From Levilactobacillus cerevisiae (GTDB taxonomy: Bacteria; Bacillota; Bacilli; Lactobacillales; Lactobacillaceae), in contig NZ_RHNN01000009.1 of NCBI RefSeq assembly GCF_003946245.1, forward strand, positions 62,001-126,000: 64,000 nt of DNA, given 5' to 3'. Below, piece after piece: positions 24,607 through 44,682 of this stretch. The first letter of the stretch is position 1; every line of letters starts with the position of its first letter. Made by a program: the position numbers and the translations under genes. The notes beneath the pieces are model-generated. The model did not search any database. It was given only the letters and a program-made list of their open reading frames with translations, and had not been told where the DNA came from.

Positions 24607-27600
24607 GTGAAATTCATGCGGAATAAAGCTTTTAACGGCGACCCTAAATTACGGTACAAGATGTACAAGGTAGGGAAGACCTGGGTCTTTGCTGCATTGG
24701 CATCCTTTTCGTTATTAGGTGCTGGGACTCTGTCGGCAAGTGCGGATAGCACAACTACGTCAGACGCAACCAGTAGTACAGAGGTCGCTTCATCAGCAGC
24801 AAGTTCATCAAGTAATTCAGCCAGTTCAAGTAGTAGTTCGAGTGCTAGCTCATCATCTTCTTCAGCAGCTAGCTCTTCAGCCAGTAGCGCTGCAAGTTCA
24901 AGCAGTGCGACCAGCTCAGCTAGTAGCTCCAGTGCTGCTTCAAGTTCTTCTACTAAAGCGGTAACTGAATCAGCGTCAGTTTCTAGCGCGACCAGTTCAG
25001 CTGCTTCATCTTCAAGTTCATCAAATGCAAGCAACGCCAGCAGTACCACTGCGACAGCAACGAGCGCCGCAACCACGGACACTGCCAGCATTGCATCCAG
25101 CGCAGCCGCAAAGGTTAGCACGGATGTGACGCTGAGTGCTAACGTGACGAAGACGGTTACTAAGGTGGCAACCACGAAACAAGCTGTGGTGACCCCAGTA
25201 ACTGAGAGTACAGCCGCTACCGTGGCTGCATCAGATGCGACGAAGGTAGCCACCTCCGCTGATCAAGATGCTAGTGCTGCAGCAAGTGCTGCCGCAGCTG
25301 CTAAAGAAAACGCTGCTTCGGCAGCTAGTTATGCAGCTTTAGTACCTACGGATGACGTGACGAATGCTTATAAGTCAACTAGTAGTTACGCTGCCAAGAC
25401 AGCTACAGCTTCAGATCTGACCCAGTACTACAGCAGTTTAGCTTCAGGCTACAAACAAGCTATCGCTGATGGCATGGGAAATTCAGATGATTTACTCGAT
25501 AAATACACGTCGGCCCTATCTAATGCAAGTTCGGCAGCAATTGGTGCGACTTCGTATGCTGATCTGGCATCTAGCACGGCGGCAGTTGCAAAATCAGCCG
25601 CAGCTATTGGTCTGAAAGATATGGTCAGCAGCGCTAATGAACCAACGTTCTCAGCTGCTGCAGCAGCCAGTGAGGCAGCAGCCTCAGCCTCAGCTGCCGC
25701 AAGTAGTGCTTATAACGCGACACAATATGATACAAGTAATGCAGCCGCAGTTGCTGCTTATGCAACAGCTAGTAGTGCGGCTTCAGATGCCGCAATTGCT
25801 TCATCAACTGCAACGAGTTTAGCTAGCGATGCACAGGCTCAGTATGTCGTTGCTAGTAGTGCTGCGCTTAGTGGTGACTATGAGGGCGCTAGCGATGCGT
25901 TCATCGCTGCGAATGATATTGCAAGTCAGGCACTCGTTGCTTATGGAGAAGCTAGTGATGCAAATTCGACAGCACAGTCTGCTGCTTTGACAGCCACTGA
26001 AATAGCTGTTGGTGATTCTGCCATACGAGCATCTTCCAGCGCTACTTTAGCAGCTGGTTCTGCAAGTACAGCTAACTCAATGGCAACTGAAGCTGCTGGC
26101 TACAAGGGTGATCAATCCGCCCAGTATGCTGAAAACGCTGCGTCATTTGCTGCTTTGGTAACGTCCTCAGCCAATTTGGCAAGCTCAGCTGCTTCGACGG
26201 CAGCGATTGCAACTAGTGCTGCCGATGCTGCATCCCTGGCTCGAGTTGCAAGTTCAGCGGCTTCAGATGCTGCTGTGAATTTGCAGGGAGCTTCTAGTGC
26301 TGCTTCACTTGCAGCGGCATATGAGACCGATACACAGGGTGTACCAGATGCTTCAGATGAAGATACGAGTGCAACTGGTGGCACTACAAACCAATTGACG
26401 ACTTCATCAACGGCGGTTAGTGTTGGCGAAAAAGTGACGTTAACTAACACTATGACGTTGGGTACGTATGATTTTCCACTTGTTATTGGATCCTCGAAGT
26501 ACAAGATTAATTCAGGTACGTATACTTGGTATGAATCAACAGATGGAAAAAATTGGACGGTTGCTTCTACAAATTCCTCAACAGCAACGTCACAAACATT
26601 TATGCCGGAGTATACTTCTGCTGGAACGTATTACTATTATTTGTTAGTTAGTGGCACAAAAAAGGCTACTAGCTTGACACAAAGCAAGACATCTAGCTTC
26701 TCAACACCATCTAACGTCATCACTGTGGTTGTCTCAGATGCTAACGGAAACTATACGGACCAAGCTTCGAGTGCGGCAGCAGCAGCGAATGATACTGCGA
26801 CACTAGCTTCCTCGATGGCTAGCTCAGCGAATGCCGCGTATGATTTGTTGGCAAGTACAACTGACATTGATAGCGATATTTCAATCAATGATCTTGCAGG
26901 TAGTGCGGCAGGTTACACGAAAGATACGGCTAGTTATGCAACATTAGCCGTTCAAGCGGCCGCTGATGCTAGTACGGCCAGTAGTTTAGCTGCTTCATAT
27001 GAAGCAGGAAAAAATTACTCAGCTGCATCTTCTGCAGCCATTGATGCTATCTCGGCTCAGACAGCCGCTGACTCATATGGTGTTTTGACTACTTCAGCTG
27101 CGGCTCTCGCTACTAAGTACGTTGCAGACACTTATTCTGCTGCGCAAAGTCAAGAAGGAGCTGCCAACTACTTGGCTTCAAGTTATGCTGCTGCTGCTTC
27201 TGATGCGGCGAGCCAGGCTGTTGAACAGGCGAATATTGCGAACTCCAATGCTGCTGATGCTGCAAACGCTTTCGCTTCTGCACCAGACTACCAAGCAGCT
27301 GCATCTGCAGCGAATGATGCTGCAATCCTTGCCAATACGAATGCGTCCAGTAATGCCTCGATGGCTATATTTAAGGCAAATGAGGCAGCCTCATACGCTG
27401 CTGAAGGTAACTTGGGCTTGGCTTCAGCTGCCGCAGCTAATGCTCAGACATACCTTAAGCGGACGACCGACAATGCAAATTCCGGTGCAGCTGCTGCTGC
27501 TGAAGCAACGAAGACAATTGTTGATGGACAATCTTCAGCGGTGAGCGTTACGGCTGCCTCAACAGCTGCGATTGATTCAGCTGCAGCCTCAGAAGCGAAA

Positions 27601-30477
27601 GTAGCAAGCTCGGTGGCAAATTCAATTGCAAATGAAATGGCAACGAACACCACTGTAGGTGGATCATACACTGCTGCTGCTGCCAGTTACGCACAGGATG
27701 CGCAGTATGCTGCAGCAACTGCTGATGCAGCAACGAATGATGCTAACAGTTATATGGCATTAGCGTCATCTGCAGTTGCTTCAGGTAGCTTTGCGATGGC
27801 AAGCGAATATTCAACTGCTGCTGACACGGAACTTACAAACGCCGCTGCATTGGCTTCTGAAGCTACAATTGCTGCGAGCGCCGCTACAGAAGCTGCTAGT
27901 TATGCGGTTATGTTTTCTAACGATTTGAGTGGAGGTAAGGGGTCACCAAAGGGTGATGCTTGGGTCCTGCTTGGAATCGTGATTTCTGGTGGATATACGC
28001 AACAACCAACGGAGCTGACCTCGGTTAGATCAGGTGCAACGGTAACCCTGACATCAACGGCAAAGACAGGTTTAGGGGCAATCAACGTTGGGAACTCTGT
28101 AAGCTGGTATGTTCAAATTGATGGTAAATGGACAACACTTAGTGGTGGTACAATCGCAGATGCTAATGGTAAGACCATTGGGACCTATACAACGAAGAGT
28201 AACACTAATATTCTGTCTGGATTAGCTACGGCGTCCAGCACGTTGACGGTAACCTTCGCAGATGATTACACAGGTTCAGTTTCCTTCCAATCAGCTGCGT
28301 CTTTCTTGGGAACCAATCCATTTAATTGGTACAGTAATCAAGCACAAGTAGATGTGTATGATACTGATATTCCAGCTACTGGTATTAGCATTACTGGTGA
28401 TGATTACATCTTGAACAATTCGACTACCAGTAATACTGGTGCTTATCAAGCCGTCAAAAATCCTGGAAATGCGACTGGAAACGTTACTTGGTCAATTAGT
28501 GATCCAAGTATTGCCACGATTTCGGATGATGGGACGGTTACACCGGTTTCAACGTCATCTGCTGGTAAGGTAACCGTTACAGCAACAATTACGAATGCGG
28601 ATGAGACAACTTATTCGGCATCAAAGGAAATTACCATTGGTAATGGACTTGCTGACCAAAGTGTTAATACTGGAGATTCTCTGACATGGGCGCCTGCCAC
28701 AAATAGTATTGGATCCGATGATGGAAGCACTTCATATTCATATCAATGGTATTACTCCGCAACTGCAGGAAGTTTAGGAAAAGCAATTTCGGGTCAAACA
28801 GATAGCACGCTGAATATGGATAATGTGACTAGCGACAAAGCTGGTTACTACACATTGCAAGTCACTGCTAACAAGACGACCGTATCATTGGGTCAAGCTT
28901 ACCTGACTGTTAATGCCACTCAAACTGATGCTGCTTCATCATCAGCAAGCTTAGCAGCTGATGCAGCTAATGAAGCTGGGCAATATGCAAGTGTAGCGAA
29001 CTCATACGCTGACTTATCTACAGATTATGCGGTGAAGGGTTCGACTGCAGCAAGTTATGCTGATCAAGCTGCTGACGCTGCCTCAACCGCAACTTCTGCT
29101 GCAACAGCTGCGTCATCTGCCGCAGCTGCAGCTTCTACGGCTCATGCAAATGCATCATCTGCTGAAGCTGCTAGTGATAATGCCGCAGCTTCAAGCTACG
29201 CTGCAGAAGCTTCATCTGCTGCAGCTGCAGCTCAAACTGCCAAAGATCATGCTTCAAGTGCTGCATCTGATGCACAATCATATGCCAATATGGCAATTGC
29301 AGCAGATTCCGATTCAGACTCTGAAAGTGACTCGGATGCTGACAGTGATTCAGACTCAGACTCCGACAGTGATTCTGACAGCGACAGCGATTCCGATTCC
29401 GACAGTGATTCCGATAGCGATTCCGATAGCGATAGCGATTCTGACAGCGACTCAGACTCCGATTCCGACAGTGATTCCGATAGCGACAGCGATTCTGACA
29501 GCGACTCAGACTCCGACAGTGACTCAGACTCCGACAGCGATTCCGATAGCGACAGTGACTCAGATTCCGACAGTGATTCTGACTCCGACAGCGACTCAGA
29601 TAGCGACAGCGACTCAGACTCCGACAGTGATTCAGACTCCGACAGCGATTCTGATTCCGATAGCGACTCCGACTCCGACAGTGACTCAGATAGCGACAGC
29701 GACTCCGACTCCGACTCCGACAGTGATTCCGACTCCGACAGTGATTCCGACTCCGACAGTGATTCCGATAGCGACAGCGACTCCGACTCCGACAGTGACT
29801 CAGATAGCGACAGTGATTCCGATAGCGACAGTAACTCCGGAAACGGTGGAGGAAATTCTGACTCAGATTCCAATAGCGACTCAGATTCCGATTCTGATAG
29901 CGATTCAGATTCTGACAATGGGAATAACTCTGGTAGCGGTGGTGATACTGGCTCAGGTTCCGGTTCAGGATCCGGTAGCGGCTCAGGTAGCGGCTCAGGC
30001 AGTGGTTCTGGCTCTGGTTCAGGCAGTGGCTCAGGTTCTGGTTCATCAGGATCAGGCTCTGGTTCAACAGGCGGTAGCGGTTCATCTGCTGCAACTGCTT
30101 CAACCGGTTCTGGCACGACACCAGTCGCCGCAACTTCACTGAATTACGGCACTGGTACAGGCACAACAGGATCAACACCAACTGTTGATTTGACTGCTAG
30201 CTCACCAGCAACTGCTTCTGACGCATCGACGAACAACGGCAACAGTAGTAGCGATAAGTCCTCAAGTGACAAGACTTCTAATGATAAGTCTGGTTCAACG
30301 AGTAATAACGCTGCTGCAGATTCAGCCAACAATGGCGACTCTGCCACTGCAAATGACAAGTCACAAACTGGTAGCAATGCCAGCTTATGGGGCGCAATCG
30401 TTGCGGCTGTAGCTGCTGTAACCGGTGGTTCATGGTGGTACTTCGGTGGCAAGCGTCGGAAACACGGCGATGATTAA
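24607..30477 (+). CDS. Giant Ser-rich repeat adhesin (KxYKxGKxW signal)
   Basis: A 1956-residue surface protein with a GTG start after AAGGAGG. Residues 1-46 form a long signal peptide with KMYKVGKTW, the KxYKxGKxW type used by Ser-rich repeat glycoproteins. Then come a Ser-rich tract (about 47-130) and long Ala/Ser-rich helical repeats (about 215-590, 715-1115, 1440-1565). Two ligand-like beta regions interrupt these: an Ig-like one at about 592-713, and 1125-1437, which includes a Big_2-like segment. A (Ser-Asp)n stalk covers about 1567-1742 and a (Gly-Ser)n stalk about 1781-1824. The C-terminus has a hydrophobic segment and the basic tail [10 protein letters not shown]. No LPxTG is present; the corresponding position reads KSQTGS. 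Neighbouring glycosyltransferases suggest it is O-glycosylated on Ser before export. Confidence 0.88.
29305..29832 (+). repeat. (Ser-Asp)n coding repeat
   Basis: About 175 codons of alternating Ser and Asp. Third positions vary (AGC, TCC, TCA, TCT, AGT; GAC, GAT), so the protein repeat is kept while the DNA is moderately diversified. The period-6 composition leaves other frames open on both strands; those frames are by-products. Confidence 0.95.
29950..30075 (+). repeat. (Gly-Ser)n coding repeat
   Basis: A second low-complexity stalk with a different composition, joined to the Ser-Asp stalk through Asn/Gly-rich linkers. It is likely to vary in length between strains by slippage or recombination. 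Confidence 0.9.
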
Positions 30478-30533
30478 TCAGAACGAAGACAGTTCTGAAT
30501 CATAAAATTTTCACGAATAATTCCGCATGAAAA

Positions 30534-30571
30534 TCAAAAAGCACGTTGCCTAATGGCAGCGTGCTTTTTGA
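30534..30571 (+). terminator. Terminator after the adhesin gene
   Basis: AAAAAGCACG and CGTGCTTTTT, with TGCC/GGCA inside, form a strong stem ending in T. Confidence 0.9.
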
Positions 30572-31090
30572 TATGTCTACAACTGTAGAGTCATCGATAT
30601 TTTTTTAAGTGATGAGCAATTAAAAAAATGAAGAAGCGGAAAGATTGAGAGGAGAAGCGGCAACAAAATCGAAGAAAATTAAGTTTAGATTCATACTCAC
30701 ACTTATAAAAAAGTGGATAATTAAGTAAAAATTAAATCGGGAATAGAAAAGTGCAGTATAATGAAACTTATGGGAGCAGTTTATTCGTAAAGTGTGCATT
30801 CAATCGGCTGGATCTTGGATAGGATATTCAAGCAATGCCTGAATTGCTGGCGCTTTCAGCACTTGCCTATCATTTGATTAATAAATAATGATAGGATAAT
30901 GTAATTTGAATGAAAAATCGTCAAAAAGGATAGTGCGTACGGTGAATTTGTGTTAATATGAATTTGTATAAAGAATGAACCAAACAAGCTGTAACCTTGC
31001 AGCAATTATCTTAGCAGGTAATAGTTGTTGGCATAGTTAGTTGACGCGTATTTAATTAAACTTCGGTTGAAGAAGGGGGCTTACCTACCG
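30572..31090. other. Regulatory spacer between the adhesin and the glycosylation genes
   Basis: AT-rich and non-coding. TATAAT at 30757-30762 and TGTTAATAT near 30951-30959 are possible -10 boxes for the downstream operon. CCTATCATT (30866-30874) pairs perfectly with AATGATAGG (30887-30895), a possible operator. The terminator and promoters imply separate transcription of the adhesin and its modification genes. Confidence 0.5.
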
Positions 31091-32731
31091 ATGAAAAAAG
31101 CTGTAATCAAAAGATTCAAAGAGGCAGTTGTCAATTTAGGAAATTTAAGCGATTCTGCCACTAATGAAGTCACCATAGCGGTTTCTGTGTCTGACCGAAA
31201 GAAACGGGCTGAAGTTCAGTTTATCCGGGGTAACAGCTTTAATCAAGCTTGGAACGAAATTGAACAGGCGCTAGCAAGTGCCCCGCAAGATGCTTGGGTC
31301 AGACTCGAAGTGGTCCACAGTATCCAAAGACAGTCGATTACGACTGTTAAGGAACAACTAAATGAAATGGACCGAATGAATTACTGGCGCCGAGGCATTA
31401 GCTTCGATGAAAAGTTCCAGACAGCCTTACTAGAGATGGAAATCAATGGACACGAGTTTTTCAAGCCAGGTGAGAACCATAAGATTGGCAAGAATAAGTC
31501 CGCAAGCTGGATTGATTATGATCAGATTACCAAGTATTTGAAACGGCGAAATGGTTCTGTTCCCCTTGACCTAGCTAGCGCGCAACAGGTTTGGGTTTTC
31601 ACTACATCTGGAATCTTCAGCAATGGCGAACAAATCTGGCGATTAGATGATTCCGAGACCGGTGAAAAGGGTCTTCGTCAATTAGTTAATCCAAGACAAG
31701 AATTGCATGATTACTTGTATCAGGGAGAAGCATTTCTGGCTCGGCAAATTAAGGAGAATGGTCAGTTCATTTATGGCTATTATCCCGGACTACAACGGAT
31801 TTTAAGCAGTTACAACAGTGTACGGCATTTTTCCTCAATTTATGCCTTGCTGGAAGCTATCGCGTTTACCAATAACACAGATGATTTGGCCAAGGTTAAG
31901 GATGCTCTACAGTGGGGATTGCAAGAATTAACGATTACTGAGGGAAACGCGTTGTTTGTGGTTGAACGTCCTAAGAAGGGTGCACCAGAGATTAAACTTG
32001 GTGCGCAAGCAATGTTGATTCTGGCTTTGTGTAAGTATCAAGAGGTGACACATGATGAGACCTTCTTACCCCAAGCAAAACAGGCGTTCAATGGCGTAGT
32101 TGCTTTCCGGCAAGACTCAGGTCGGTTCAATCACGTGTTGAATACTGATTTAACCGTGAAAGATGCCTTTCGTATCATTTATTACGAAGGTGAAATCACA
32201 TTTGCCTTGGCCAGACTGTACGAACTTATTGGCGATGATCAGGTGCTCGCAGCTGTGAAGGACTCTTTAGATTTTATGGTCACTAACGACTACGGTAAGT
32301 ACCACGATCATTGGATTGCCTATGCTGTGAATGAAGCCTTACAAATCATGCCAGCCAATCGAGACTACATGCAGTTAGGACTAAAGAACGTCTACAGTCA
32401 CCTGCAGTTCATCGAGGACCGAGATACGGCTTATCCAACGTTATTGGAGCTGCTCAACGCTGCCGTTAAAATGACTGACATCATCAAACGCACAGGGAAC
32501 GAAGACTTGCTAGAGCCTTACGATTTGATTCGCTTGCGACGGGCTTGGCAAGTTCGAGCAGAACATGAACTCATGACGGGTGCTTTCCAACCAGAGCTAG
32601 CTATGTACTTCTACGCACCACAGAAGTTCGTTGGCGGATTCTTTGCCCGCCATGACCATTTCCGAACCCGAATCGATGACTGTGAGCATTTCTTATCCGG
32701 TCTTATTAACTATTACAACTACACTTACTGA
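31091..32731 (+). CDS. Unknown alpha-helical protein, possibly an (alpha/alpha) toroid
   Basis: A 546-residue protein that I do not recognise. There is no signal peptide or membrane segment, so it is probably cytoplasmic. The N-terminal 130 residues are mixed alpha/beta. From about 200 onward helices recur with motifs such as RHFSSIYALLEAIAF, LGAQAMLILALCKYQE and IIYYEGEITFALARLYEL. The last resembles the YPGEA-type turn of six-hairpin glycosidase or epimerase proteins; this is a weak, structural-style guess. The ATG at 31091 is preferred because AGAAGGGGG precedes it by 11 bases. It heads the operon that contains the GtfB/GtfA pair, so a role in glycan handling is inferred. Confidence 0.6.
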   Translation: MKKAVIKRFKEAVVNLGNLSDSATNEVTIAVSVSDRKKRAEVQFIRGNSFNQAWNEIEQALASAPQDAWVRLEVVHSIQRQSITTVKEQLNEMDRMNYWRRGISFDEKFQTALLEMEINGHEFFKPGENHKIGKNKSASWIDYDQITKYLKRRNGSVPLDLASAQQVWVFTTSGIFSNGEQIWRLDDSETGEKGLRQLVNPRQELHDYLYQGEAFLARQIKENGQFIYGYYPGLQRILSSYNSVRHFSSIYALLEAIAFTNNTDDLAKVKDALQWGLQELTITEGNALFVVERPKKGAPEIKLGAQAMLILALCKYQEVTHDETFLPQAKQAFNGVVAFRQDSGRFNHVLNTDLTVKDAFRIIYYEGEITFALARLYELIGDDQVLAAVKDSLDFMVTNDYGKYHDHWIAYAVNEALQIMPANRDYMQLGLKNVYSHLQFIEDRDTAYPTLLELLNAAVKMTDIIKRTGNEDLLEPYDLIRLRRAWQVRAEHELMTGAFQPELAMYFYAPQKFVGGFFARHDHFRTRIDDCEHFLSGLINYYNYTY

Positions 32732-32745
32732 GAGGAGCTGACACG

Positions 32746-32949
32746 ATGGCAGTTTTGACCACAATCTTTGCGTATAAGCGGGTCCAATTCACAATTCGGA
32801 TGTTGATTTACGTAGTGGTGGGGATTCTCGTGCTGGTGTTTCGGTGGCGGAACAAGAAGAAGACCCGTAAGCGCATGGATGATCGAACCGAGAAGATGAT
32901 GAGAGAAACGAAGAAAAACAAAGATGGCAAATACCCTTGGGAAGAATAA
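32746..32949 (+). CDS. Small single-pass membrane protein
   Basis: A 67-residue protein with one membrane segment (about 18-37, IRMLIYVVVGILVLVFRW) and a strongly basic, then mixed-charge, cytoplasmic tail. GAGAGGAG precedes the ATG. It lies 14 bases after the previous gene and 22 before the GtfB-like gene, so it belongs to the glycosylation operon. It could anchor the glycosyltransferase complex at the membrane; that is inference. No family is recognised. Confidence 0.7.
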   Translation: MAVLTTIFAYKRVQFTIRMLIYVVVGILVLVFRWRNKKKTRKRMDDRTEKMMRETKKNKDGKYPWEE

Positions 32950-32971
32950 CCCAATAGATTGGAGTGTAACG

Positions 32972-34489: not shown

Positions 34490-34501
34490 GAGGGAGTCGC
34501 T

Positions 34502-36034: not shown

Positions 36035-36053
36035 ACTTTAGGGGGAGATTGTG

Positions 36054-36449
36054 ATGGACAAAACAACTAGTTTAGTCGTTGATATTGATGGGACGCTGTG
36101 TGACTTGAAGACGCCGGACCAAACGTATTTAGACGTCACACCCAAGGTCAGCATGGTTGAGAAAATGCGGGAGTATCAACAGGCGGGCTACCATATCATC
36201 TTGTTTACGTCGCGGCAAATGCGGACCTACGAAGGGAACCTCGGCAAGATCAACAAGTTTACGGCGCCCATGACTCAGGAATGGCTCGCCAAAAATGACG
36301 TGCCCTATGACGAAATTATCTTCGGTAAGCCCTGGGCCGGCCGTGGTGGGTACTACATTGATGACCGGGCATTCCGACCCAGCGAACTCTTACAGCATTC
36401 ACCTGAAGAGCTGGCGGATTTGGTTGAAAAGGAGCGTGACGTACATTGA
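36054..36449 (+). CDS. HAD-superfamily phosphatase of capsule-locus type
   Basis: A 131-residue, cap-less HAD hydrolase. Motif I is VVDIDGTLCD (nucleophile and acid/base Asp), motif II is ILFTSRQM, a Lys stands in FGKPWAGR, and motif III is YYIDDRAF. This short type is common in capsular polysaccharide loci beside kinases and nucleotidyltransferases, as here. Predicted cytoplasmic. The substrate, a phospho-sugar or phospho-alcohol, is not deducible. ATG 36054 follows GGGGGAG by six bases and overlaps the next gene by four bases. Confidence 0.78.
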   Translation: MDKTTSLVVDIDGTLCDLKTPDQTYLDVTPKVSMVEKMREYQQAGYHIILFTSRQMRTYEGNLGKINKFTAPMTQEWLAKNDVPYDEIIFGKPWAGRGGYYIDDRAFRPSELLQHSPEELADLVEKERDVH

Positions 36450-38092
36450 CTAAGACACTGTTAATGCTCTCCGCGGCTAAGATTGCGGATGATATGCAGA
36501 CGACCTTTGGGACCATTTATCCGGCCATGATTCCGGTCACCGATGGGCAACGAATTATTGACCGGACCGTGGATCAGTATCAGGCGTTGGGTTACGACAT
36601 GTACGTTGCCGTGAGTGCCAGCGATGAGTCGGTTGCGGATTATGTGGCACAGAAGCATTTACCCGTGACGCCGATTAAAGTGGCGAGTGGGCTGAACTTA
36701 AGTGAAGCCGTTGCGCAAGCCTTTCAAACGTTGGCGACTGAAACCACAGTTGCAGACTTAACCATTGTCTTTGGTGACACGGTGGTGAAAGCTCAGGACT
36801 TAACCCGCGCAGACACCATCTTCACCCATGAAGTCGGCGATGCCGGTCGGTGGACCACGGTGTCCTACGACCAGCACCAACACGTGGTCTTCACGGATAA
36901 GGTCGTGCCAGAACAAGCCCAAGCTAATTTCGATGCAGCCGTGGGGGTCTTCAACTTTAGTGCCGGCCAAGAGTTAGTGACAGCGTGGCAGGGGGCAAAG
37001 TCCTTCTACGAAAACTTGCGGATCTATGATGAACAGCACCCGTTAACGGTTGCCGACACGGACCAGTGGTTGGACTTCGGGCACAGCGATAAGTATGCCG
37101 AGGCCAAGCAAGTGGAAGCCCGGTTCTTCAACAAAACCAACATCGACTTCAAACGCGGTATCATCCGCAAGGAAAGTACCGACGTGGACAAGTTCTTGGG
37201 TGAAGTCAAGTGGTACCTGAAGCTGCCAAAGCGGCTGTCGTACATTGCGCCACGGATCTTTGACTACTCGCTGAACTACAATGCGCCGTTCGTGGAAATG
37301 GAATATTTCTCCTACGAAAGCCTCCACAACCTCTTCCTCTATGGTAATTTTGAACTGGGCTTCTGGCGAGAAATTATTGACGAACTTTTCTTCCTGCGTT
37401 CAGAAATGAATGATTATCAAGTACAGGTTGACCAGGAAGAGTACCAGGCCACCGTGAGTGATATGTACCTGGACAAGACGGTGAACCGCCTCCACCGGTT
37501 GATTGATGAGGACGATTTCTATGCGACCATCGCGGACAAACCACTAGTGATTAATGGCCAGAATTACCCGAGTATCAACGGCATCATCGCGGCTTTGCCA
37601 GACGTTTTGGCCCAGAGTGGCGTGCTCCAAGGGAACACGTTTGCGGTGATTCACGGCGACTTCTGCATGACCAACATTTTGTATGACAACACGAAGCACG
37701 TCATGCGGTTGATTGACCCCCGCGGTAAATTCGGTAAGTTTGATATTTACGGGGATGCCAAGTACGATTACGCCAAGCTGATGCACAGCTTCTCGGGCAA
37801 GTACGACTGCATCATTTCCGACATGTTTACGGTGGACGCTGATGAAAGTGGTCGCTTGGACTACGGTCTCAATGTTACTGGCAACGAAGAAGAAATCGGT
37901 CACTTATTTGAAACGAAATTGCAGGAACATCTGGGTGATCAGCGGGCCTACCAACAGATTCAGTTGATTGAATCGCTGCTGTTCCTCAGTATGATTCCGT
38001 TGCACAAGGACAAGCCAGAACGGCAAAAAGCTATGTTGGCGGTGGGCGTTACCAAGTTCGCACCGTTCATGGCAAAAGTTATGGAGGGATAG
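36446..38092 (+). CDS. Fusion of a degenerate nucleotidyltransferase domain and a choline kinase-like domain
   Basis: A 548-residue, TTG-initiated protein. The N-terminal 230 residues resemble a sugar nucleotidyltransferase fold, but the usual GxGxR loop is replaced by LSAAKIADDMQTTFG, suggesting it is degenerate. The C-terminal 300 residues form an APH/choline kinase domain with the catalytic AVIHGDFCMTNILYD and metal-binding LIDPRGKFGK. Its context between a HAD phosphatase and an intact nucleotidyltransferase recalls lic-type or capsule-substituent pathways, in which a small alcohol is phosphorylated and then activated with a nucleotide. The product is unknown. Confidence 0.72.
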   Translation: MTKTLLMLSAAKIADDMQTTFGTIYPAMIPVTDGQRIIDRTVDQYQALGYDMYVAVSASDESVADYVAQKHLPVTPIKVASGLNLSEAVAQAFQTLATETTVADLTIVFGDTVVKAQDLTRADTIFTHEVGDAGRWTTVSYDQHQHVVFTDKVVPEQAQANFDAAVGVFNFSAGQELVTAWQGAKSFYENLRIYDEQHPLTVADTDQWLDFGHSDKYAEAKQVEARFFNKTNIDFKRGIIRKESTDVDKFLGEVKWYLKLPKRLSYIAPRIFDYSLNYNAPFVEMEYFSYESLHNLFLYGNFELGFWREIIDELFFLRSEMNDYQVQVDQEEYQATVSDMYLDKTVNRLHRLIDEDDFYATIADKPLVINGQNYPSINGIIAALPDVLAQSGVLQGNTFAVIHGDFCMTNILYDNTKHVMRLIDPRGKFGKFDIYGDAKYDYAKLMHSFSGKYDCIISDMFTVDADESGRLDYGLNVTGNEEEIGHLFETKLQEHLGDQRAYQQIQLIESLLFLSMIPLHKDKPERQKAMLAVGVTKFAPFMAKVMEG

Positions 38093-38094
38093 GT

Positions 38095-38817
38095 TTGCAG
38101 GTTGTGATTACAATGGCGGGGCAGGGCTCACGTTTTCGTAAAGTGGGCTACACCGTCCCCAAGCATGAGATTGAAGTGCGGGGCAAGAGCCTATTCGAGT
38201 GGGCCATGCTGTCCCTGAAGGATTTTGTGAATGAAAAATTTGTCTTCGTCGTGCGCGAGGGTCAGTACCAACCGGACAATCTGCGGAAACTGATTCGTAA
38301 GGCGGGTATTCACCGCTACCAGATTGTGGCGATCTCAGAGCTGACAAGCGGTCAAGCAGCAACGGTGATGGCGGCGGAATCCGTCTTGAATCCGAAAGAC
38401 AGTGTTGCTGTGTATAACATTGATACGTACGTGTTGCCGGGCTACATTTTACGAGAAGACTTGCGGCACTGCGACGGTAATCTGACGACGTTCACAGCTC
38501 CTGGTGACCACTGGTCCTTTGTCCAACTGGACGAGGCGGGTAAGGTCACCGACGTGGTGGAGAAGCGACGGGTCTCGAGTCATGCGTCGATCGGTTTCTA
38601 TTACTTCAACACGTATGGCGATTTTAAAGAGATCTTCAACCATTATGGGGATGCCATTAAGGCTGAGTACGGTGAGGTTTACGTGGCGCCGATGTATCAT
38701 TATTTATTGAAGCAACAGGCTAAGATTACCTACACGGACATCCCGTTTGACGTGGTGCACGTGTTGGGGACGCCGGCAGAGTTGGATGTGTTTAAGGAAG
38801 AAGCAGCAATGGAGTGA
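38095..38817 (+). CDS. Nucleotidyltransferase (NTP-transferase fold)
   Basis: A 240-residue enzyme with the intact activation loop TMAGQGSRFRKVGYTVPKHE (GxGSRF...PK) and the metal-binding VYNIDTYVLPG. It likely joins an NTP to a phosphorylated sugar or alcohol and releases pyrophosphate. It starts with TTG after GGAGGGATAGG, two bases after the preceding stop, so the three genes at 36.0-38.8 kb are tightly coupled. The specific nucleotide (CTP, UTP or dTTP) cannot be told from the sequence. Confidence 0.75.
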   Translation: MQVVITMAGQGSRFRKVGYTVPKHEIEVRGKSLFEWAMLSLKDFVNEKFVFVVREGQYQPDNLRKLIRKAGIHRYQIVAISELTSGQAATVMAAESVLNPKDSVAVYNIDTYVLPGYILREDLRHCDGNLTTFTAPGDHWSFVQLDEAGKVTDVVEKRRVSSHASIGFYYFNTYGDFKEIFNHYGDAIKAEYGEVYVAPMYHYLLKQQAKITYTDIPFDVVHVLGTPAELDVFKEEAAME

Positions 38818-38903
38818 CTCTAGTTTTGGTAGCTGGTGAATTGTTATTCAACCGGTATTAATGAAATGATTGAGACAAGAGAGCTAATTGGGGAGGAAAG
38901 AGT

Positions 38904-40757
38904 ATGCGATCTGTATGGGCAATGGTCTGTGGGACAATTCGTGATCAGGTTGATTTTAGTTTGATAATGGACTATTTAATGCGGTGTCGAGAGAAGGGCA
39001 TCATTCAAGGAATTGTGGTAAGTACCTGGGAACATGAATTTGATCAACTGGGTGATTTAGAAGCTAAACTAGCGCTAAATGATGTGGCTGTTGTGATGTC
39101 TCCGACTAATGATGATATGGTGGCAAACATGCATGCTAATTCCGTAAACTATTGGCGGCAAGCTAAGCAGATGCAGGCGGCTTTAGATTTGATTCCGACC
39201 GATGCGATTGTGATAAAGACCCGAACGGATCGAGCCCTGCCTGCTACAAAGCGGTTGATTTCCATGCTAGATGAACCTGATCCATTGCCACTTGTTGCTG
39301 AGGAAGCCCAGACTAGAAATTTGACGCAAATTCCTCGAGTGTTTAAGCATAAAATTGCTATTTTTAAGGCACGGACAGGACGAATTCTACAGTTTACAGA
39401 CTTTGCTTTCATGGGTTACAGCCCAGACATTCGTAAACTCATTAATTTTGATATTGCAGATTTAACTTTTACTCGCCCCATTGTTGCTAATATCCAGTTC
39501 TTTATTTACCCATTCATTCGGGACTACCCAATCATCCGTGATTATTATCGGGTCGTTGATTTTTACCCCTTACTAAAGGACTTGAATAATTATACGGAAA
39601 ATGGCGGTATTATGTTTCCAAAGTTTTTTGAACGCGTATATGCAGCGTACTTTGGACTTCTAGTCACTCACTTTCGGATCGGCTCACTTGGCGAAAAATC
39701 CAATCTTGGGGAGATTACCTTGCCAATTGAATTTTCTGCTTTATTTCATTCGGGTGAAGGGAAACATTTACTTCACGATGCTTTGGGCGTGACCCTAAAT
39801 TCACAGGAAATCTTGGATAAATTTTTAGGACAGCCATTCCAGGCGGACGATAAGCCCAAAGCCAAGCATTGGTGGCAGAAGAATGCTTCGGATATCACTC
39901 CCCCTCAGGTTGTTGTCGAACAGGAAGCAACTAAGCAAGTTCTAAGAAATGTGAAAAATTTATCTTCAGAGATGCTTGATCGAGTAACTAATGAGGAACT
40001 GGAAGAACTTAAGGAATTTACCAACAACCAAAGTTTTTCACCTAATCACTGGTTGCGAGTGAAGAGACCAATACTGGACGAGCAGGTGGCACCGTATAAA
40101 TCAACATTCAGATATGAATTACCTGGAATTAGTGATGAAGAGCGAGCAAATCTGTGGCAAGAATGTGAAGAAAGTACGAGTGCCAATCAAGTTCTTTATC
40201 GCTATTGGTTACATCACGAAATCAAACCGGAAGATACACCAGCATATCTTATGAGCACAGCAAGAACGGACAATAGATTTAGTATCTTGACGATGACAAG
40301 ATTGCTTCGCAAGGGACTGTTAGATAATGATACTAAGGCGGAAATCCTAAGAATTAATAATTTCTTTGGGAGCTTTCATGTTCGTCATGGTCGAATGAAT
40401 GCCGAGACTGCTTGTTACATTATGGCTAGGTACATGTATTTAGTTGAAAACAATCAAAAGATTCCTGCCATGGCTAATGAGCAGGCTAATTACGTTTTCA
40501 AACGGTATTTGTCGGATGAATTTGAGTCATTTAAAACTTTGTTGAAAGAACCGAATGCTTTAATTCCTTTCTTTGACAAAGCGATTGATGAACGACAAGA
40601 GACTAAAAAGGCTGCAGCCTGTCAGCGTGCCATTGAAGTGGCATTAGAGGTCACCCATGACTCTAAGTATTGGGACATGCTTGAAAAGCGGTTTAATGGA
40701 CGGTATGAAGGGTATGAGTATGCATACCAGTATGGTATTTCTTGGAAATTGATTTGA
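38904..40757 (+). CDS. WavE-like glycan synthesis protein
   Basis: A 617-residue protein. The N-terminal 300 residues show VIKTRTDRALP and GIVVSTWEHEFD, resembling the WavE lipopolysaccharide-synthesis family, a probable glycosyltransferase fold. Residues 330-617 are charged, helical and unrecognised. There is no signal or membrane segment. The gene is AT-richer than the preceding enzymes and has more AAT/GAT/TTT codons, a break that suggests a separate origin. GAGGAAAG precedes the ATG. A role in extending the glycan of the locus is inferred from context only. Confidence 0.55.
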   Translation: MRSVWAMVCGTIRDQVDFSLIMDYLMRCREKGIIQGIVVSTWEHEFDQLGDLEAKLALNDVAVVMSPTNDDMVANMHANSVNYWRQAKQMQAALDLIPTDAIVIKTRTDRALPATKRLISMLDEPDPLPLVAEEAQTRNLTQIPRVFKHKIAIFKARTGRILQFTDFAFMGYSPDIRKLINFDIADLTFTRPIVANIQFFIYPFIRDYPIIRDYYRVVDFYPLLKDLNNYTENGGIMFPKFFERVYAAYFGLLVTHFRIGSLGEKSNLGEITLPIEFSALFHSGEGKHLLHDALGVTLNSQEILDKFLGQPFQADDKPKAKHWWQKNASDITPPQVVVEQEATKQVLRNVKNLSSEMLDRVTNEELEELKEFTNNQSFSPNHWLRVKRPILDEQVAPYKSTFRYELPGISDEERANLWQECEESTSANQVLYRYWLHHEIKPEDTPAYLMSTARTDNRFSILTMTRLLRKGLLDNDTKAEILRINNFFGSFHVRHGRMNAETACYIMARYMYLVENNQKIPAMANEQANYVFKRYLSDEFESFKTLLKEPNALIPFFDKAIDERQETKKAAACQRAIEVALEVTHDSKYWDMLEKRFNGRYEGYEYAYQYGISWKLI

Positions 40758-40841
40758 TCCTTCCAAGCTAAAATAGCATGCTTAGGTCTTATATTTGTGA
40801 AAAAAGGTGGACTCAGTTGAAAACGCTTGAGGTGAAAAGAG

Positions 40842-42080
40842 ATGGGAAAAAATGGAGAGCTTTTAGTTGTATTAGCTGTCGCTGCATTACTGGTTTGGTT
40901 TGTACCGGTAGCTGTGCACGCAGATGTTAGCAAGAATGAAGTTGAGGTTCAAAGCTTCAGGTTGAGTGTTCGACCAGATGCAGATACGACTTCCGTCCCT
41001 ATTCGTGATGCAAAGGTGAATGTATATGGAATTGGCACTGTGACCGGAAAGACAACGTTGTTAACGACTGTAGTGAGTGATAGCGTTGGTAAAATTTCTA
41101 ATTTGAAGTTGAAGTCAGATGAAGAATTTGATCAGATTCGCTTTCAATACTATTTTGGTAATGATGAACGTGGATATGTTATTAAGCAAACTGATTATCA
41201 TTATAATGTGAATCATACACGAACGATTCCGGACAATCGGGTTATCAATGGAAATTGGACTTCGTCATTCAGTGGTGACAATGGAACTCCTTCGTTCTAT
41301 TATTATTTGACAATGCTGAATAGTGTATACGATGATGTTTATGGCAATCAAGTTGAAGCAGTTGAGGCGGCATCATCATATATTGATACCAGCCAAATTT
41401 CCTTCAAACCTATTGATTTGATTTATGATACGACCATTGATCAAAGCGGAAACTCATTTAATCGTAATGGTAAAGGAGACGTTATTCGTTCAGTTATTTG
41501 TGTGAATACGGACAATATAACTGACTGGGATTTAACGAATGCCGTAACGCATGAGTGGGCACACTGGAACATGTATCGTGCTACAGGGATGCCTGGTGGC
41601 GAGTATAGTTCTCACTATACTTATAATGCTAATCCTGAAGTGAGTTACAAGGAAGGATGGGCGATTTTTCAGAGGCACCGGTATTCATGTGGACTAACAA
41701 ACGAATTCACAAATGATACGCAGGTTCAGAATGATGCTAGGTTATTTGGCACGTCGACAAATTTCACAGTTAAAGGTGCTTTATACGATATCTATGACAT
41801 CAATTATGATGATTACGCGCAACTTGAGAATGATTCATTTGATATCTATCAGTTGTTTGTTGGAGATGAGGCCACATTGTCTCGAAAGAATTTGGTGAGT
41901 GAGGGACTCATGTATTCACTGATGGTTAATAGCCGTGCAACAACATTTGAGGGCTTTTATCAGTACTTGATTCAGAATTACTTAAGTGGCACAGATAATC
42001 AAGTGCTGAAGGCTGAGCTAGTAAAAGCGATGGCCGTGAATGGCATTGACGAAAATGGGAACTTTATGCTTAAGGGTTAA
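40842..42080 (+). CDS. Secreted HEWAH zinc metalloprotease-like protein (zincin 1)
   Basis: A 412-residue exported protein. Signal peptide about 1-27 (hydrophobic LLVVLAVAALLVWFVPVAV, probable cleavage after AHA). Residues about 35-115 form a beta-rich module resembling a Cna-B/transthyretin fold (IRDAKVNVYGIG). The zinc motif HEWAH is at 237-241, in an HEXXH helix, and a second acidic motif KEGWAIF places Glu271 30 residues on, as in gluzincins. No LPxTG is present, so it is probably released. It is closely related throughout its length to the protein at 43402-44682. AT-rich, probably acquired. Substrate unknown; the adjacent adhesin is a candidate. Confidence 0.75.
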   Translation: MGKNGELLVVLAVAALLVWFVPVAVHADVSKNEVEVQSFRLSVRPDADTTSVPIRDAKVNVYGIGTVTGKTTLLTTVVSDSVGKISNLKLKSDEEFDQIRFQYYFGNDERGYVIKQTDYHYNVNHTRTIPDNRVINGNWTSSFSGDNGTPSFYYYLTMLNSVYDDVYGNQVEAVEAASSYIDTSQISFKPIDLIYDTTIDQSGNSFNRNGKGDVIRSVICVNTDNITDWDLTNAVTHEWAHWNMYRATGMPGGEYSSHYTYNANPEVSYKEGWAIFQRHRYSCGLTNEFTNDTQVQNDARLFGTSTNFTVKGALYDIYDINYDDYAQLENDSFDIYQLFVGDEATLSRKNLVSEGLMYSLMVNSRATTFEGFYQYLIQNYLSGTDNQVLKAELVKAMAVNGIDENGNFMLKG

Positions 42081-42133
42081 ATTGCTGAAACACAGGTTAT
42101 TTATGAGTAAATAGATAGAGAGATGGTAAGCCG

Positions 42134-43012
42134 ATGAAAGTATTCAAGCGGTTCGTCTTCTTCGTCCTCCTGGCAGCCGTTGTCGGCACCGCTATGTGGG
42201 GGATGACTAAGATGTACCAGGCCATGTTTGGCAATAACCATTATTATCAGCGGTCCCGGGCCTACACGACGCAGGATGGACTGATCAACCAGAAGATGGT
42301 GTCCGGCAAGAAACTGCAGCAGTTAACCAGTCTGACACACGGCACCGCCTACACTGGCAATACCAGTCTGGACCAGGCTTCAGTGACTTATCGTTACCGA
42401 GTCGGCAAGAACAACATCAGTAACTTTATGGGAACGGATACGACTTTGCAGTTGTACACGGAATCTAAGTTGATGACCAAGTCGATGGTACAAGACGCTG
42501 CGACCTACTGGAACACACTGGCTGGACAACAAATCGTTAGTGTGGTTGACAGTGCCAAGCAGAGCGATGAAGTCATTCATGATAGCAAGAGCGATTCTAA
42601 TTCTACGTCGCTGGGTGGTCAGACCTATGATCGTCAGGGGATGAACTTTCATCCAGCTAACTGGAAATCTAAGGGACTCAGCTCAGCGGAGAAGCAAGAT
42701 TGGGTAGAAGCTGTTTTGATTCGTGAAATTGGTCATGCTTTGGGTATTCCAAGTTTAGCCGGTGGGACGTTGGGCACGAACGCCTTTGCTGAGGGAAAGA
42801 TCGGCTCAGAAGTCATGGGCTACTGGTCCGTTGGTAATGCGGCACCTGCCGTGAACAAACTGGGCGTCAAGAGTACCGTCATGGATGGTGCGGCCCTGGC
42901 ACTGGCTGGATTAAGCTGGAAACAACCTCAGCGCTTAGCAAAGTGGGTATACACGGATCAGACGCCGTACGTGCTCTATCACGATGGTAAGGTCACCTCA
43001 ACGTTTAAGTAG
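42134..43012 (+). CDS. Matrixin-like membrane protein with lost zinc ligands
   Basis: A 292-residue protein with an N-terminal membrane anchor or signal (about 7-27). The C-terminal half is like bacterial matrixins (DAATYWNTLAGQQIV, then a zinc-helix region, then VMGYWS as a Met-turn). The expected HExxHxxGxxH reads REIGHALGIPS, at 197-207: the first His is Arg197 and the third is Ser207, while Glu198 and His201 remain. It should not bind catalytic zinc in the usual way, so a non-enzymatic or chaperone role is possible. It is GC-richer than the two zincins flanking it. Confidence 0.68.
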   Translation: MKVFKRFVFFVLLAAVVGTAMWGMTKMYQAMFGNNHYYQRSRAYTTQDGLINQKMVSGKKLQQLTSLTHGTAYTGNTSLDQASVTYRYRVGKNNISNFMGTDTTLQLYTESKLMTKSMVQDAATYWNTLAGQQIVSVVDSAKQSDEVIHDSKSDSNSTSLGGQTYDRQGMNFHPANWKSKGLSSAEKQDWVEAVLIREIGHALGIPSLAGGTLGTNAFAEGKIGSEVMGYWSVGNAAPAVNKLGVKSTVMDGAALALAGLSWKQPQRLAKWVYTDQTPYVLYHDGKVTSTFK

Positions 43013-43401
43013 AGTCATTTGGGAATGCGAACGAATCGGGTCGAGCACCAACCACGAAGAATAAGCTCCCAAGGAAATGCGGTTCCCTGGTTGAGCCAAT
43101 TCATGCGGCAACTCGTGATTGAAGGGCGTTCGTGAAACAAGAAGGACGGTATCGGTGAACTCCAATCCACTGGTACCGTCCTTTTAGCTTTAGCTCTTAA
43201 AAGTGTGATTAGTTTGGAAGGTGAACTTGACTCTGGGAGCAGATAGTGTCAGTCCCAAACTAAGACAAGGCATAATATTTGTAGATGGTTATAATGAACA
43301 AACAATGAATTTTGGATGACCGTAAGTCATATCACGGAAACTTCAAGATTCAATGTACATGAAACAGATGGCGTGAAAACAATCATTAGGAGGATGTGAG
43401 T
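43013..43401. other. Spacer between matrixin-like gene and zincin 2
   Basis: No gene is supported. It contains the terminator at 43142-43176, followed by CTCTTAAAAGT, which also follows the related terminator near 44750. The rest is AT-rich and includes the upstream region of zincin 2, with AGGAGG at 43388-43393. Confidence 0.6.
43142..43176 (+). terminator. Terminator, copy 1 of a duplicated hairpin
   Basis: AAGGACGGTATC and TGGTACCGTCCTTTT pair with a loop containing CCAATCCAC. The sequence is closely repeated at 44703-44743. Confidence 0.85.
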
Positions 43402-44682
43402 ATGAAGAGATCGAAGAAGATCTATATTGGCATCGGCATTTTTTTAGGAATTCTTTTACTTTTCATCGTTCAAGCAACATTAAGTCGTTCAACATCAAAA
43501 CAGGTCACACCGAGTAATGAGATGACGATCAAGGCGTACAGCTTCTCACTTAAGGAGAGTGGGACTGCTTTTGACACGGCGATTCCATTGGCAGATGCTA
43601 GTGTCAAAATTTACGGCATTAACAGTAAGACTGGCAAGCAGATTTCGCTTGCTTCAACAACGACAAATGCAGCGGGTGTTATTAGGCATTTGAAGTTAAA
43701 GGCAACCAGAAAATTTGATCGGATTAAACTAACCTATTTTTTTGGTGAAAAGGCACGTGGCTATGCAATTACCTTAAAGGATGCTCGTTATCAAGTTAGC
43801 CACACACTTACAGTTCCCAAGAATCGGATATTAAGTTCCAAGCGGATCTCGGTTTACGAGACGCCTGCGGTTTCTTCTCAAATGTATTATCAGCTTGCAA
43901 GGTTGAACAGAACTTATGCGGATGTTTTTCGGAATCAATCGGCTGCTATAAAAGCTGCATCGTCATACATTGATATGAGCAGGGCCACGTTAAAACCGAT
44001 TGACCTGATTTATGACCCCACGTTAACTGATAGTCAAAGTTCTTTTCACAGTCGTGGAAAGAGTGATAACGATGGAGGCGTGATTCGCCGGCCAGTCATT
44101 TGTATCAATACCAGCAATCAGACTCAGATGACCATGAATTCCGCGGTCAGTCATGAGTGGGCTCATTGGAACATGTGGCGAGTCAACGATAAGCTAGCGG
44201 CGGGAAGTTACAGGAGTCATTCGGCTTATAACGTTGATCCAGGTGTTAGCTATAAGGAGGGCTGGGCAATTTTTCAACGATACCGGTATATGTATGGTCT
44301 GACCAAAGCTTTTGCCTATGATACGTTGGTTCAGAAAAACGCTTCACTTTACGGAAAATCAACAAATAATACAGTTTGGGGAGCCTTGAATGACTTGTTT
44401 GACATTAATTATGGAAAATATGCCGCGTTGGAGGACGATCCATTCGACGTTTATCAGCTATTTGTACATGGAAATGATAGTTTGGCCAATAAGGAACTTA
44501 TCAACGAGGGGCTGATGTACGGTGTAATGGTCAATAGCCGGGCAACGACTTTCAAAGAGTTTTATCAGTACTTGGCCACTTATGCAGATAAGTCTGCGGA
44601 TAAGACTATTAAGTCAAGGCTGGTTCGGGCCATGGCAGTAAATGGTATTGATAAGCATGGAAATTTTAAGGTGAAGGGTTAA
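43402..44682 (+). CDS. Secreted or anchored HEWAH zinc metalloprotease-like protein (zincin 2)
   Basis: A 426-residue paralogue of zincin 1. The N-terminus has one hydrophobic segment (about 7-26, KIYIGIGIFLGILLLFIV) without a clear cleavage site, so it may stay membrane-anchored. A Cna-B/transthyretin-like module follows (LADASVKIYGIN), then HEWAHWNMWR with the zinc motif at 241-245 and KEGWAIF with Glu276. The two zincins share order and many identical stretches but differ across the signal region. ATG 43402 is set by AGGAGG eight bases upstream. Function unknown; a wall or glycoprotein protease is inferred. Confidence 0.75.
   Translation: MKRSKKIYIGIGIFLGILLLFIVQATLSRSTSKQVTPSNEMTIKAYSFSLKESGTAFDTAIPLADASVKIYGINSKTGKQISLASTTTNAAGVIRHLKLKATRKFDRIKLTYFFGEKARGYAITLKDARYQVSHTLTVPKNRILSSKRISVYETPAVSSQMYYQLARLNRTYADVFRNQSAAIKAASSYIDMSRATLKPIDLIYDPTLTDSQSSFHSRGKSDNDGGVIRRPVICINTSNQTQMTMNSAVSHEWAHWNMWRVNDKLAAGSYRSHSAYNVDPGVSYKEGWAIFQRYRYMYGLTKAFAYDTLVQKNASLYGKSTNNTVWGALNDLFDINYGKYAALEDDPFDVYQLFVHGNDSLANKELINEGLMYGVMVNSRATTFKEFYQYLATYADKSADKTIKSRLVRAMAVNGIDKHGNFKVKG

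Follow-up and report, generated by a model that had tools for sequence, protein, structure and literature searches.

What product is made by a Levilactobacillus locus in which a giant surface protein is followed, on one strand, by glycosyltransferase, phosphatase, kinase and nucleotidyltransferase genes? We addressed this in Levilactobacillus cerevisiae, using a 64,000-nucleotide stretch of its genome (hereafter the window: contig NZ_RHNN01000009.1 of assembly GCF_003946245.1, positions 62,001 to 126,000), in which 12 plus strand genes occupy positions 24607-44682 (Levilactobacillus genome G000, 3.38 Mb, 99.99% complete). The locus probably makes and decorates a Ser-Asp-repeat (SD-repeat) surface glycoprotein of the Pls/SdrD kind, with an added module for a nucleotide-activated substituent, and is most likely a variant of Pls-type SD-repeat glycosylation. 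This reading is supported by the SD tract of the adhesin and by SdgA and SdgB being the best models for its two glycosyltransferases, and the window has three features of a Pls-type locus: an (xD)n surface protein in which x is Ser, the GtfC-family protein TOR as the next gene, and GT4 glycosyltransferase partners. A preliminary description made from the sequence alone had named all of the genes listed below, each of which is present on the same strand at the positions it gave, but had called the surface protein a Ser-rich repeat adhesin; its repeat is Ser-Asp, unlike the Ser-rich repeat of serine-rich repeat proteins (SRRPs), with a longest uninterrupted xD run of 84 units (residues 1574-1741). 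Window positions of the features are as follows.

24607..30477, +, adhesin: giant surface protein, 1956 aa, with KxYKxGKxW signal peptide, Ala/Ser-rich region and Ser-Asp tract
29326..29829, +, longest unbroken xD run of the adhesin, predicted acceptor region
31067..32731, +, TOR: GtfC-family protein, N-terminal alpha/beta part and C-terminal (alpha/alpha)6 toroid
32746..32949, +, MICRO: 67 aa, single hydrophobic helix
32924..34489, +, GTB: GT4-like glycosyltransferase, variant EX7E
34502..36034, +, GTA: GT4 glycosyltransferase, EX7E intact
36051..36449, +, HAD: phosphatase, EcbF/BcbF-like
36446..38092, +, KIN: degenerate nucleotidyltransferase fused to an APH/choline-kinase-like small-molecule kinase
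38095..38817, +, NTP: nucleotidyltransferase, signature intact
38904..40757, +, WAVE: 617-aa 'WavE-like' protein, putative transferase
40842..42080, +, MP1: exported HEWAH...EGWA metalloprotease-like protein
42134..43012, +, MATRIX: membrane-anchored matrixin-like protein, two zinc ligands replaced
43396..44682, +, MP2: HEWAH protein, MP1 paralogue

The genes from TOR to MATRIX are closely packed (intergenic gaps of -26 to 86 bp), the probable starts of TOR and GTB being the ATG at 31091 and position 32972 respectively. In the reading we favour, TOR would handle the alternating-Asp tract in the cytosol, ahead of export of the adhesin via the ordinary Sec pathway, and GTA as catalyst with GTB as variant partner would put sugar on the serines of the tract. 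A second layer, in the 14 Levilactobacillus genomes with the module, would have KIN phosphorylate a small molecule, NTP couple the product to a nucleotide, HAD take phosphate off a pathway intermediate and WAVE transfer the activated group onto the glycan, whilst a MurF-S11-CapA enzyme of some relatives would add a further group, probably amide-linked. We infer the order of the steps, the substrates, the acceptor of WAVE and the action of the module on the adhesin; TOR, GTB, GTA, KIN, NTP and WAVE all lack a strongly hydrophobic stretch (19-residue mean >1.6), which counts in favour of this scheme.

TOR, the glycosyltransferases and the adhesin tail

The preliminary description had TOR as an unknown helical protein; the gene stands, but it encodes a widely conserved core component with a published relative, GtfC. 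Two printed gtfC primers (PMC5230774) match with zero mismatches inside the TOR homologue of a staphylococcal pls-type locus (L115), which places TOR in the GtfC family, and two printed gtfD primers from the same source match exactly inside the convergent GT4 gene of that locus. The accessible part of PMC5230774 describes GtfC as a protein of 538 aa encoded directly downstream of pls and not predicted as a glycosyltransferase by CAZy; GtfD alone gave weak (COL genes) or no (1061 genes) Pls glycosylation, GtfC plus GtfD gave full glycosylation, and SD peptides of Pls carried N-acetylhexosamine (HexNAc).

No Pfam match to TOR was found at E<=0.01. In its structural model (mean pLDDT 78), residues 205-554 form an (alpha/alpha)6 toroid like that of AGE epimerases and GH76, the closest folds being sugar epimerases such as cellobiose 2-epimerase (3vw5; Z 26.5, root mean square deviation 3.4, 314 residues aligned) and GH76 enzymes (Z about 24). 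Charged residues, for example in the motifs RH, DHW, NE and RxRIDDxEH, are invariant across 18 sequences down to 30% identity, and this conservation suggests that TOR is an enzyme. Relatives with roughly 31-37% identity over at least 80% of the length occur in 54 plasmid records, often named poly(glycerol-phosphate) alpha-glucosyltransferase or Mur ligase family protein, whilst a TOR profile search of viral contigs found no relative; PDB-sequence profile searches with TOR, KIN, WAVE and the MP proteins gave nothing useful.

GTA and GTB both match Pfam PF00534 above its cut-off. Their best NCBIfam models are SdgA and SdgB (182-272 bits versus a cut-off of 800), SdgA being the best match of GTA at 272 bits and thus below cut-off, and against the GtfA equivalog model the two score only 109 and 144 bits versus a cut-off of 574.6. 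The 'GtfB/GtfA pair' of the preliminary description is therefore right as to two GT4 genes and wrong as to their names, given that the best models are SdgA/SdgB, both below cut-off. In the window and eight relatives the EX7E motif of GTB is replaced by DX7E, and GTB is likely to be a partner rather than the sole catalyst. In most Levilactobacillus loci read, and in a single locus from a different genus of the family (L186), MICRO is the next gene after TOR.

The adhesin C-terminus lacks LPXTG and ends instead in a hydrophobic stretch with GGSWW and basic residues (window 30330-30477). Tails of the GG-SWW kind are present in most Levilactobacillus adhesins read (L140-L152), which suggests membrane anchoring or an unknown sorting signal.

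The added module and its spread in Levilactobacillus

A recognisable form of the locus was mapped in nine other Levilactobacillus genomes, and the same chromosomal neighbours flank it in all four maps that reach both sides (G317, G347, G234 and G381); we conclude from these two observations that the locus is more than a chance assembly. The gene order in the nine is, with variation, adhesin-TOR-MICRO-GTB-GTA-HAD-KIN-NTP-WAVE, with one or two copies of WAVE and, in G337, a Mur ligase and one WAVE copy between MICRO and the glycosyltransferases. A scan of named records gave 12 loci, namely 11 Levilactobacillus species, overlapping with the nine mapped genomes, in which the same gene order was recognisable, and one Bacteroidetes metagenome-assembled genome.

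Of 35 genus genomes, 25 have TOR (with some broken copies), 14 have WAVE and three have MP2 homologues, and on these counts we divide the locus into a usual genus core (adhesin and TOR with MICRO and the glycosyltransferase genes), an added module (HAD-KIN-NTP-WAVE) and local metalloproteases. Among 397 Lactobacillaceae genomes the KIN fusion was found in 11: 10 of the 25 that were examined from the genus, plus one outside it with a weak match. Across the 25 genus genomes searched for both, KIN and WAVE agree throughout (the same 10 present, the same 15 absent); TOR is present in all 10 positives, each of which has a single KIN match, located in the TOR locus. HAD, KIN, NTP and at least one WAVE gene occur together in all 11 named Levilactobacillus loci, although the NTP gene of L067 and the WAVE gene of L072 are each in two pieces. 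The co-occurrence that the preliminary description had proposed checking thus holds, and its suggestion of a so far uncharacterised locus type adding a nucleotide-activated substituent would fit this pattern.

HAD scores 139 bits against the EcbF/BcbF model (cut-off 162) and keeps an intact DxDGT motif; among the matches listed in a search for EcbF/BcbF literature there were only unrelated acronyms. The kinase motifs of KIN are intact (HGDFCMTN and IDPRG), whilst its nucleotidyltransferase half appears degenerate, the catalytic signature, judged by eye against the form we assume, having been lost; judged in the same way, NTP keeps that signature. The sole solved relative of NTP by profile search is 4evw (E 1.2e-49).

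WAVE had been called WavE-like, an identity that found no support and that we reject: there was no Pfam match at E<=0.01, the WavE model included, and no Foldseek match at E<=0.001. Its model (pLDDT 77.6, pTM 0.60) has a Rossmann/GT-A-like N-terminal part and a helical C-terminal part, its best Foldseek matches, all above E 0.001, being CDP-ribitol-synthesis cytidylyltransferases and GT-A enzymes, and the motif KTRTDRA is invariant. The search of plasmids found no WAVE. In the Bacteroidetes genome KIN, HAD and NTP adjoin one another amid flippase, O-antigen ligase and glycosyltransferase genes, as would be expected of a module making an activated glycan precursor, and we read the module as one for the synthesis and transfer of a nucleotide-activated small group.

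The locus is less self-contained than had been described, since relatives add a MurF-S11-CapA fusion that the window lacks. This protein of about 1067 aa is found in five of the 11 named relatives (L063, L064, L066, L069 and L070), with Pfam domains, read in one of the five, for a Mur ligase, an S11-like part and CapA; in L072 the Mur and CapA parts form two open reading frames (ORFs), in L065 the Mur ligase stands separately, and the CapA protein of L067, L068 and L071 lacks a Mur match. Relocation of MurF-CapA elsewhere in the window genome was rejected, as only two weak matches were found (27% identity to parts), which we took for housekeeping enzymes.

MP1, MATRIX and MP2 each have an N-terminal hydrophobic helix. 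A 'metalloprotease set' had been proposed as part of the system; MP1 and MP2 do keep HEWAH and EGWA, but they are rare, and with homologues in just three of 35 genomes we reject them as general maturation machinery. MATRIX reads REIGHALGIPS in the window in place of the M10 zinc site HExGHxxGxxH, and RExGHxxGxPS/T recurs in eight of nine homologues read (the window, L063-L066, L069, L070 and L147), an intact HExGHxxGxPH being found only in L068, there fused to a long part with GW repeats. As Arg and Ser/Thr replace two zinc ligands, a role as a matrixin protease is rejected; MATRIX resembles a conserved pseudo-enzyme that may serve the adhesin as scaffold or inhibitor. A gene of this kind lies upstream of the adhesin in L147 (16080-16949), in a genome without the kinase module, from which we take it that MATRIX follows the adhesin rather than the module. 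Fragments of MATRIX adjoin the G365 locus. Beyond the locus, the minus strand of the window encodes a surface protein with many PGTEN/PGTEK repeats (50138-51478), and G337 and G347 have homologues of it on the downstream side of the locus.

Alternating-aspartate proteins beside TOR

TOR was found in 30 of 398 Bacilli genomes (seven of 146 genera) and in 54 of 395 Lactobacillales genomes (11 of 80 genera). The 85 loci that we assembled comprise 26 stretches taken from 25 of the 29 other Bacilli genomes, 35 taken from 32 of the 54 Lactobacillales genomes, 14 contributed by the genus survey and 10 of plasmid origin. Scored as an alternating-Asp run with at least 12 x positions in an ORF within 3.5 kb of TOR, an xD protein is present in 72 of the 85, an earlier count having given 32 of 41 TOR rows. 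By another measure (a 60-aa stretch with Asp at no fewer than 60% of alternate positions, six more plasmid loci included), xD stretches occur in 68 of 132 ORFs of at least 300 aa within 600 bp of TOR versus 10 of 322 further away. In the six later plasmid loci, which are outside the table, four have an xD protein and two, both from Variovorax, have none.

Thirteen loci were dropped for want of a qualifying run (L075, L076, L079, L114, L129, L137, L138, L141, L153, L199, L202, L216 and L218). In L076 and L079 xD proteins are present but further from TOR, L114 has a short xD fragment, and the large adhesin of L075 lacks an xD tract. The contigs of L153, L202 and L216 end on the upstream side. 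Ala is frequent at the x position. In the Proteobacteria Nitratireductor, Rhizobium, Agrobacterium and Klebsiella, 3-8 kb separate the xD protein from TOR, and where type I secretion genes are annotated the xD protein is encoded behind them; in Sulfitobacter it adjoins TOR on the opposite strand. Three type I secretion sets from Alphaproteobacteria (L223 10896-13980, L225 10644-14051 and L226 10824-14054) accompany an (AD)n protein, BapA-like in two, together with TOR and a MurF-like gene or a TOR-Mur fusion. In L122 (7355-11376) two TOR genes stand in tandem behind a single xD protein.

Partner enzymes were sought within 6 kb of TOR and recognised by similarity to a hand-made reference set; apart from G381 (L152), the loci of the nine gene maps are outside this table. 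Sixteen of the 72 xD loci have GT4 partners only and Ser plus Thr (S+T) at 0.88-1.0 of x, a class that includes L142 and L148, which belong in 'both' because the same contigs carry MurF further on (L070 and L072); the other 14 still span 0.88-1.0. The 21 loci with only Mur ligase or ATP-grasp partners have S+T at 0-0.69 of x, with no overlap, and three loci with both enzyme kinds have values of 0.07, 0.68 and 0.77. With TORs clustered at 70% identity, S+T reaches 0.85, a threshold set after the data had been seen, in 8/8 GT4-only versus 0/11 ligase-only clusters (Fisher p 1.3e-5); at 60% the figures are 4/4 versus 0/6 (p 0.0048) and at 50% 2/2 versus 0/5 (p 0.048). Partner class and repeat type change just four times each on a tree of the 72 TORs. 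All three of the supported independent pairs are in agreement (p 0.25 in a sign test, significance being out of reach with three), most pairs being of the same repeat type when all 72 loci are used, so that the pattern is complete but rests on few events. It would fit O-glycosylation where hydroxyls exist and carboxylate-directed ligation where there are none. TOR itself is fused to a Mur ligase in L077, L201, L213, L216, L225 and L226, to ATP-grasp domains in L079 and to a GT4 in L076.

Related systems and competing explanations

Glycosylation of SD repeats by SdgA/SdgB is already known, as are glycosyltransferase pairs beside sesJ and the 226 Ala-Asp repeats of Listeria Lmo1799 (from the accessible parts of PMC3794999 and PMC8561734, PMC7029136 and PMC4850167, and PMC8687577 respectively). 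Among the systems closest to the window is S. aureus pls-gtfC-gtfD, for which the accessible part of PMC5230774 gives an SD-repeat surface protein, a GtfC-family gene directly downstream and a GT4 partner. The pls locus L115 differs from the window in that HAD-KIN-NTP-WAVE and MICRO were not recognised there, the glycosyltransferase gene is convergent, the adhesin has LPXTG and a Mur ligase gene follows the GT4. This last gene (L115 12829-16414, after gtfD) contains the printed GtfD-mutR primer of PMC5230774, so the published clone, as far as the accessible text describes it, seems to hold only part of it. The S. aureus Sdr/Clf proteins with SdgA/SdgB share SD repeats and a GT4 pair with the window (PMC3794999 and PMC8561734, as accessible), whose glycosyltransferases nevertheless fall far under the model cut-offs. 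In the S. epidermidis sesJ-gtfA-gtfB islands the accessible part of PMC7029136 places two adjacent 'glycosyltransferase' genes in the region 88 bp downstream of an SD-repeat MSCRAMM; by position alone one of these may be a candidate TOR, but the islands are mobile and a second module is not reported in that part. In L082 from Listeria, an (AD)n LPXTG protein, taken for Lmo1799 by likeness, lies directly upstream of TOR, with no partner enzyme recognised within 6 kb.

The preliminary description had framed the locus as a variant of the SecA2/SecY2/Asp type of SRRP locus. A true accessory-Sec SRRP locus, its SecA2/SecY2/Asp genes being elsewhere in the genome, is highly improbable here, even though the KxYKxGKxW signal and the adjoining glycosyltransferase pair recall the GspB/SraP-type loci as we take them to be, the glycosyltransferases weakly match GtfA, Asp1 and GtfB, and a second SecY near the SecY2 cut-off is present in some Levilactobacillus genomes (G397, G381, G111, G279, G402, G404 and G405). 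The window genome has one SecY, at 199 bits well under the SecY2 cut-off of 249.6, SdgA/SdgB outscore GtfA, the repeats are SD in place of Ser-rich and TOR stands where such loci presumably have Asp proteins (SecA2 and Asp were not searched for in the genome); on the SecY2 result and the repeat type we reject this explanation, which is nearly refuted. It is also rather unlikely that HAD-KIN-NTP-WAVE serves to decorate a cell-wall polysaccharide or teichoic acid and merely happens to follow an adhesin operon. The HAD, KIN and NTP trio sits inside a polysaccharide locus in Bacteroidetes and HAD resembles the capsule proteins EcbF/BcbF, but the module is packed against the glycosyltransferase genes, the only KIN match of each of 10 genus genomes is in the TOR locus, and no flippase, polymerase or lipid-linked first-step gene is among the genes of the window locus.

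Two further explanations concern what TOR does. It may be a non-enzymatic adaptor, keeping the extended acidic tract in place for whatever modifying enzyme the locus has, an idea modelled on the role we assume for GtfB towards GtfA in accessory-Sec loci, although we would put this at somewhat below even. Fusions to three unrelated enzyme types speak for an adaptor, as does the weak or absent glycosylation by GtfD alone, whereas the many invariant charged residues look catalytic and the nearest folds are enzymes. More tentatively, the (xD)n tracts may be modified on their aspartates: TOR would bind or prime (xD)n, Mur-ligase-like or ATP-grasp enzymes would next attach an amine or amino acid to the side chains of Asp, and GT4 would act on x only if this is Ser or Thr, the window being the GT form and the relatives with MurF-S11-CapA having both. 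Many xD partners are (AD)n with almost no hydroxyl, the S+T ranges of the two partner classes do not overlap, their clusters separate fully, and TOR is fused to enzymes of both kinds; set against this are the few independent switches, the post hoc threshold, the three loci with both enzyme kinds and the fact that Mur ligases could act on a sugar or small molecule.

Several observations weigh against Pls-type glycosylation with an added module. GTA and GTB are far under the SdgA/SdgB cut-offs, the GT pair of G365 is on the other, upstream side of the adhesin, and no GT pair was seen in the stretch from G356, whose contig ends. No recognised partner lies within 6 kb of TOR in 32 of the 72 xD loci, so TOR does not always work beside a glycosyltransferase, and its fold is that of sugar epimerases and GH76. 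The connection of the module with the adhesin is one that we infer, and its trio can serve a polysaccharide, as the Bacteroidetes context indicates. SdgA/SdgB act on S. aureus SD repeats, and we know of no GtfC relative named as needed for this; none is named in the accessible part of PMC7029136 either.

TOR/GtfC lies beside surface proteins with alternating Asp in plasmids of Proteobacteria as well as in staphylococci, Listeria, other Lactobacillales and lactic acid bacteria. In the open-licence PMC literature we found neither a general link between the GtfC family and alternating-Asp proteins, nor its fusion to or neighbourhood with Mur ligases and ATP-grasp enzymes, nor the Levilactobacillus extension. 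The family, often misnamed poly(glycerol-phosphate) alpha-glucosyltransferase in databases, is treated as a helper of Pls glycosylation in the accessible part of the one study found (PMC5230774); as many of its neighbours are (AD)n proteins, which offer almost no serine for glycosylation, it is unlikely to serve only as an aid to O-glycosylation. A speculative extension is that a single system unites the (xD)n surface proteins of Bacillota with those of Proteobacteria, with a constant GtfC/TOR toroid and exchangeable enzymes that would modify x (GT4 on Ser/Thr) or the Asp carboxylates (amidation by Mur-ligase/ATP-grasp enzymes), of which the Levilactobacillus locus would be the most elaborate form read. 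The co-located ligases lead to a specific, testable prediction on aspartate, and, if true, amidation of Asp carboxylates would be a side-chain modification of bacterial adhesins that we have not found in print in that literature. The adhesin of a harmless food bacterium, with natural variants that lack single modules, would be a tractable place for such a test.

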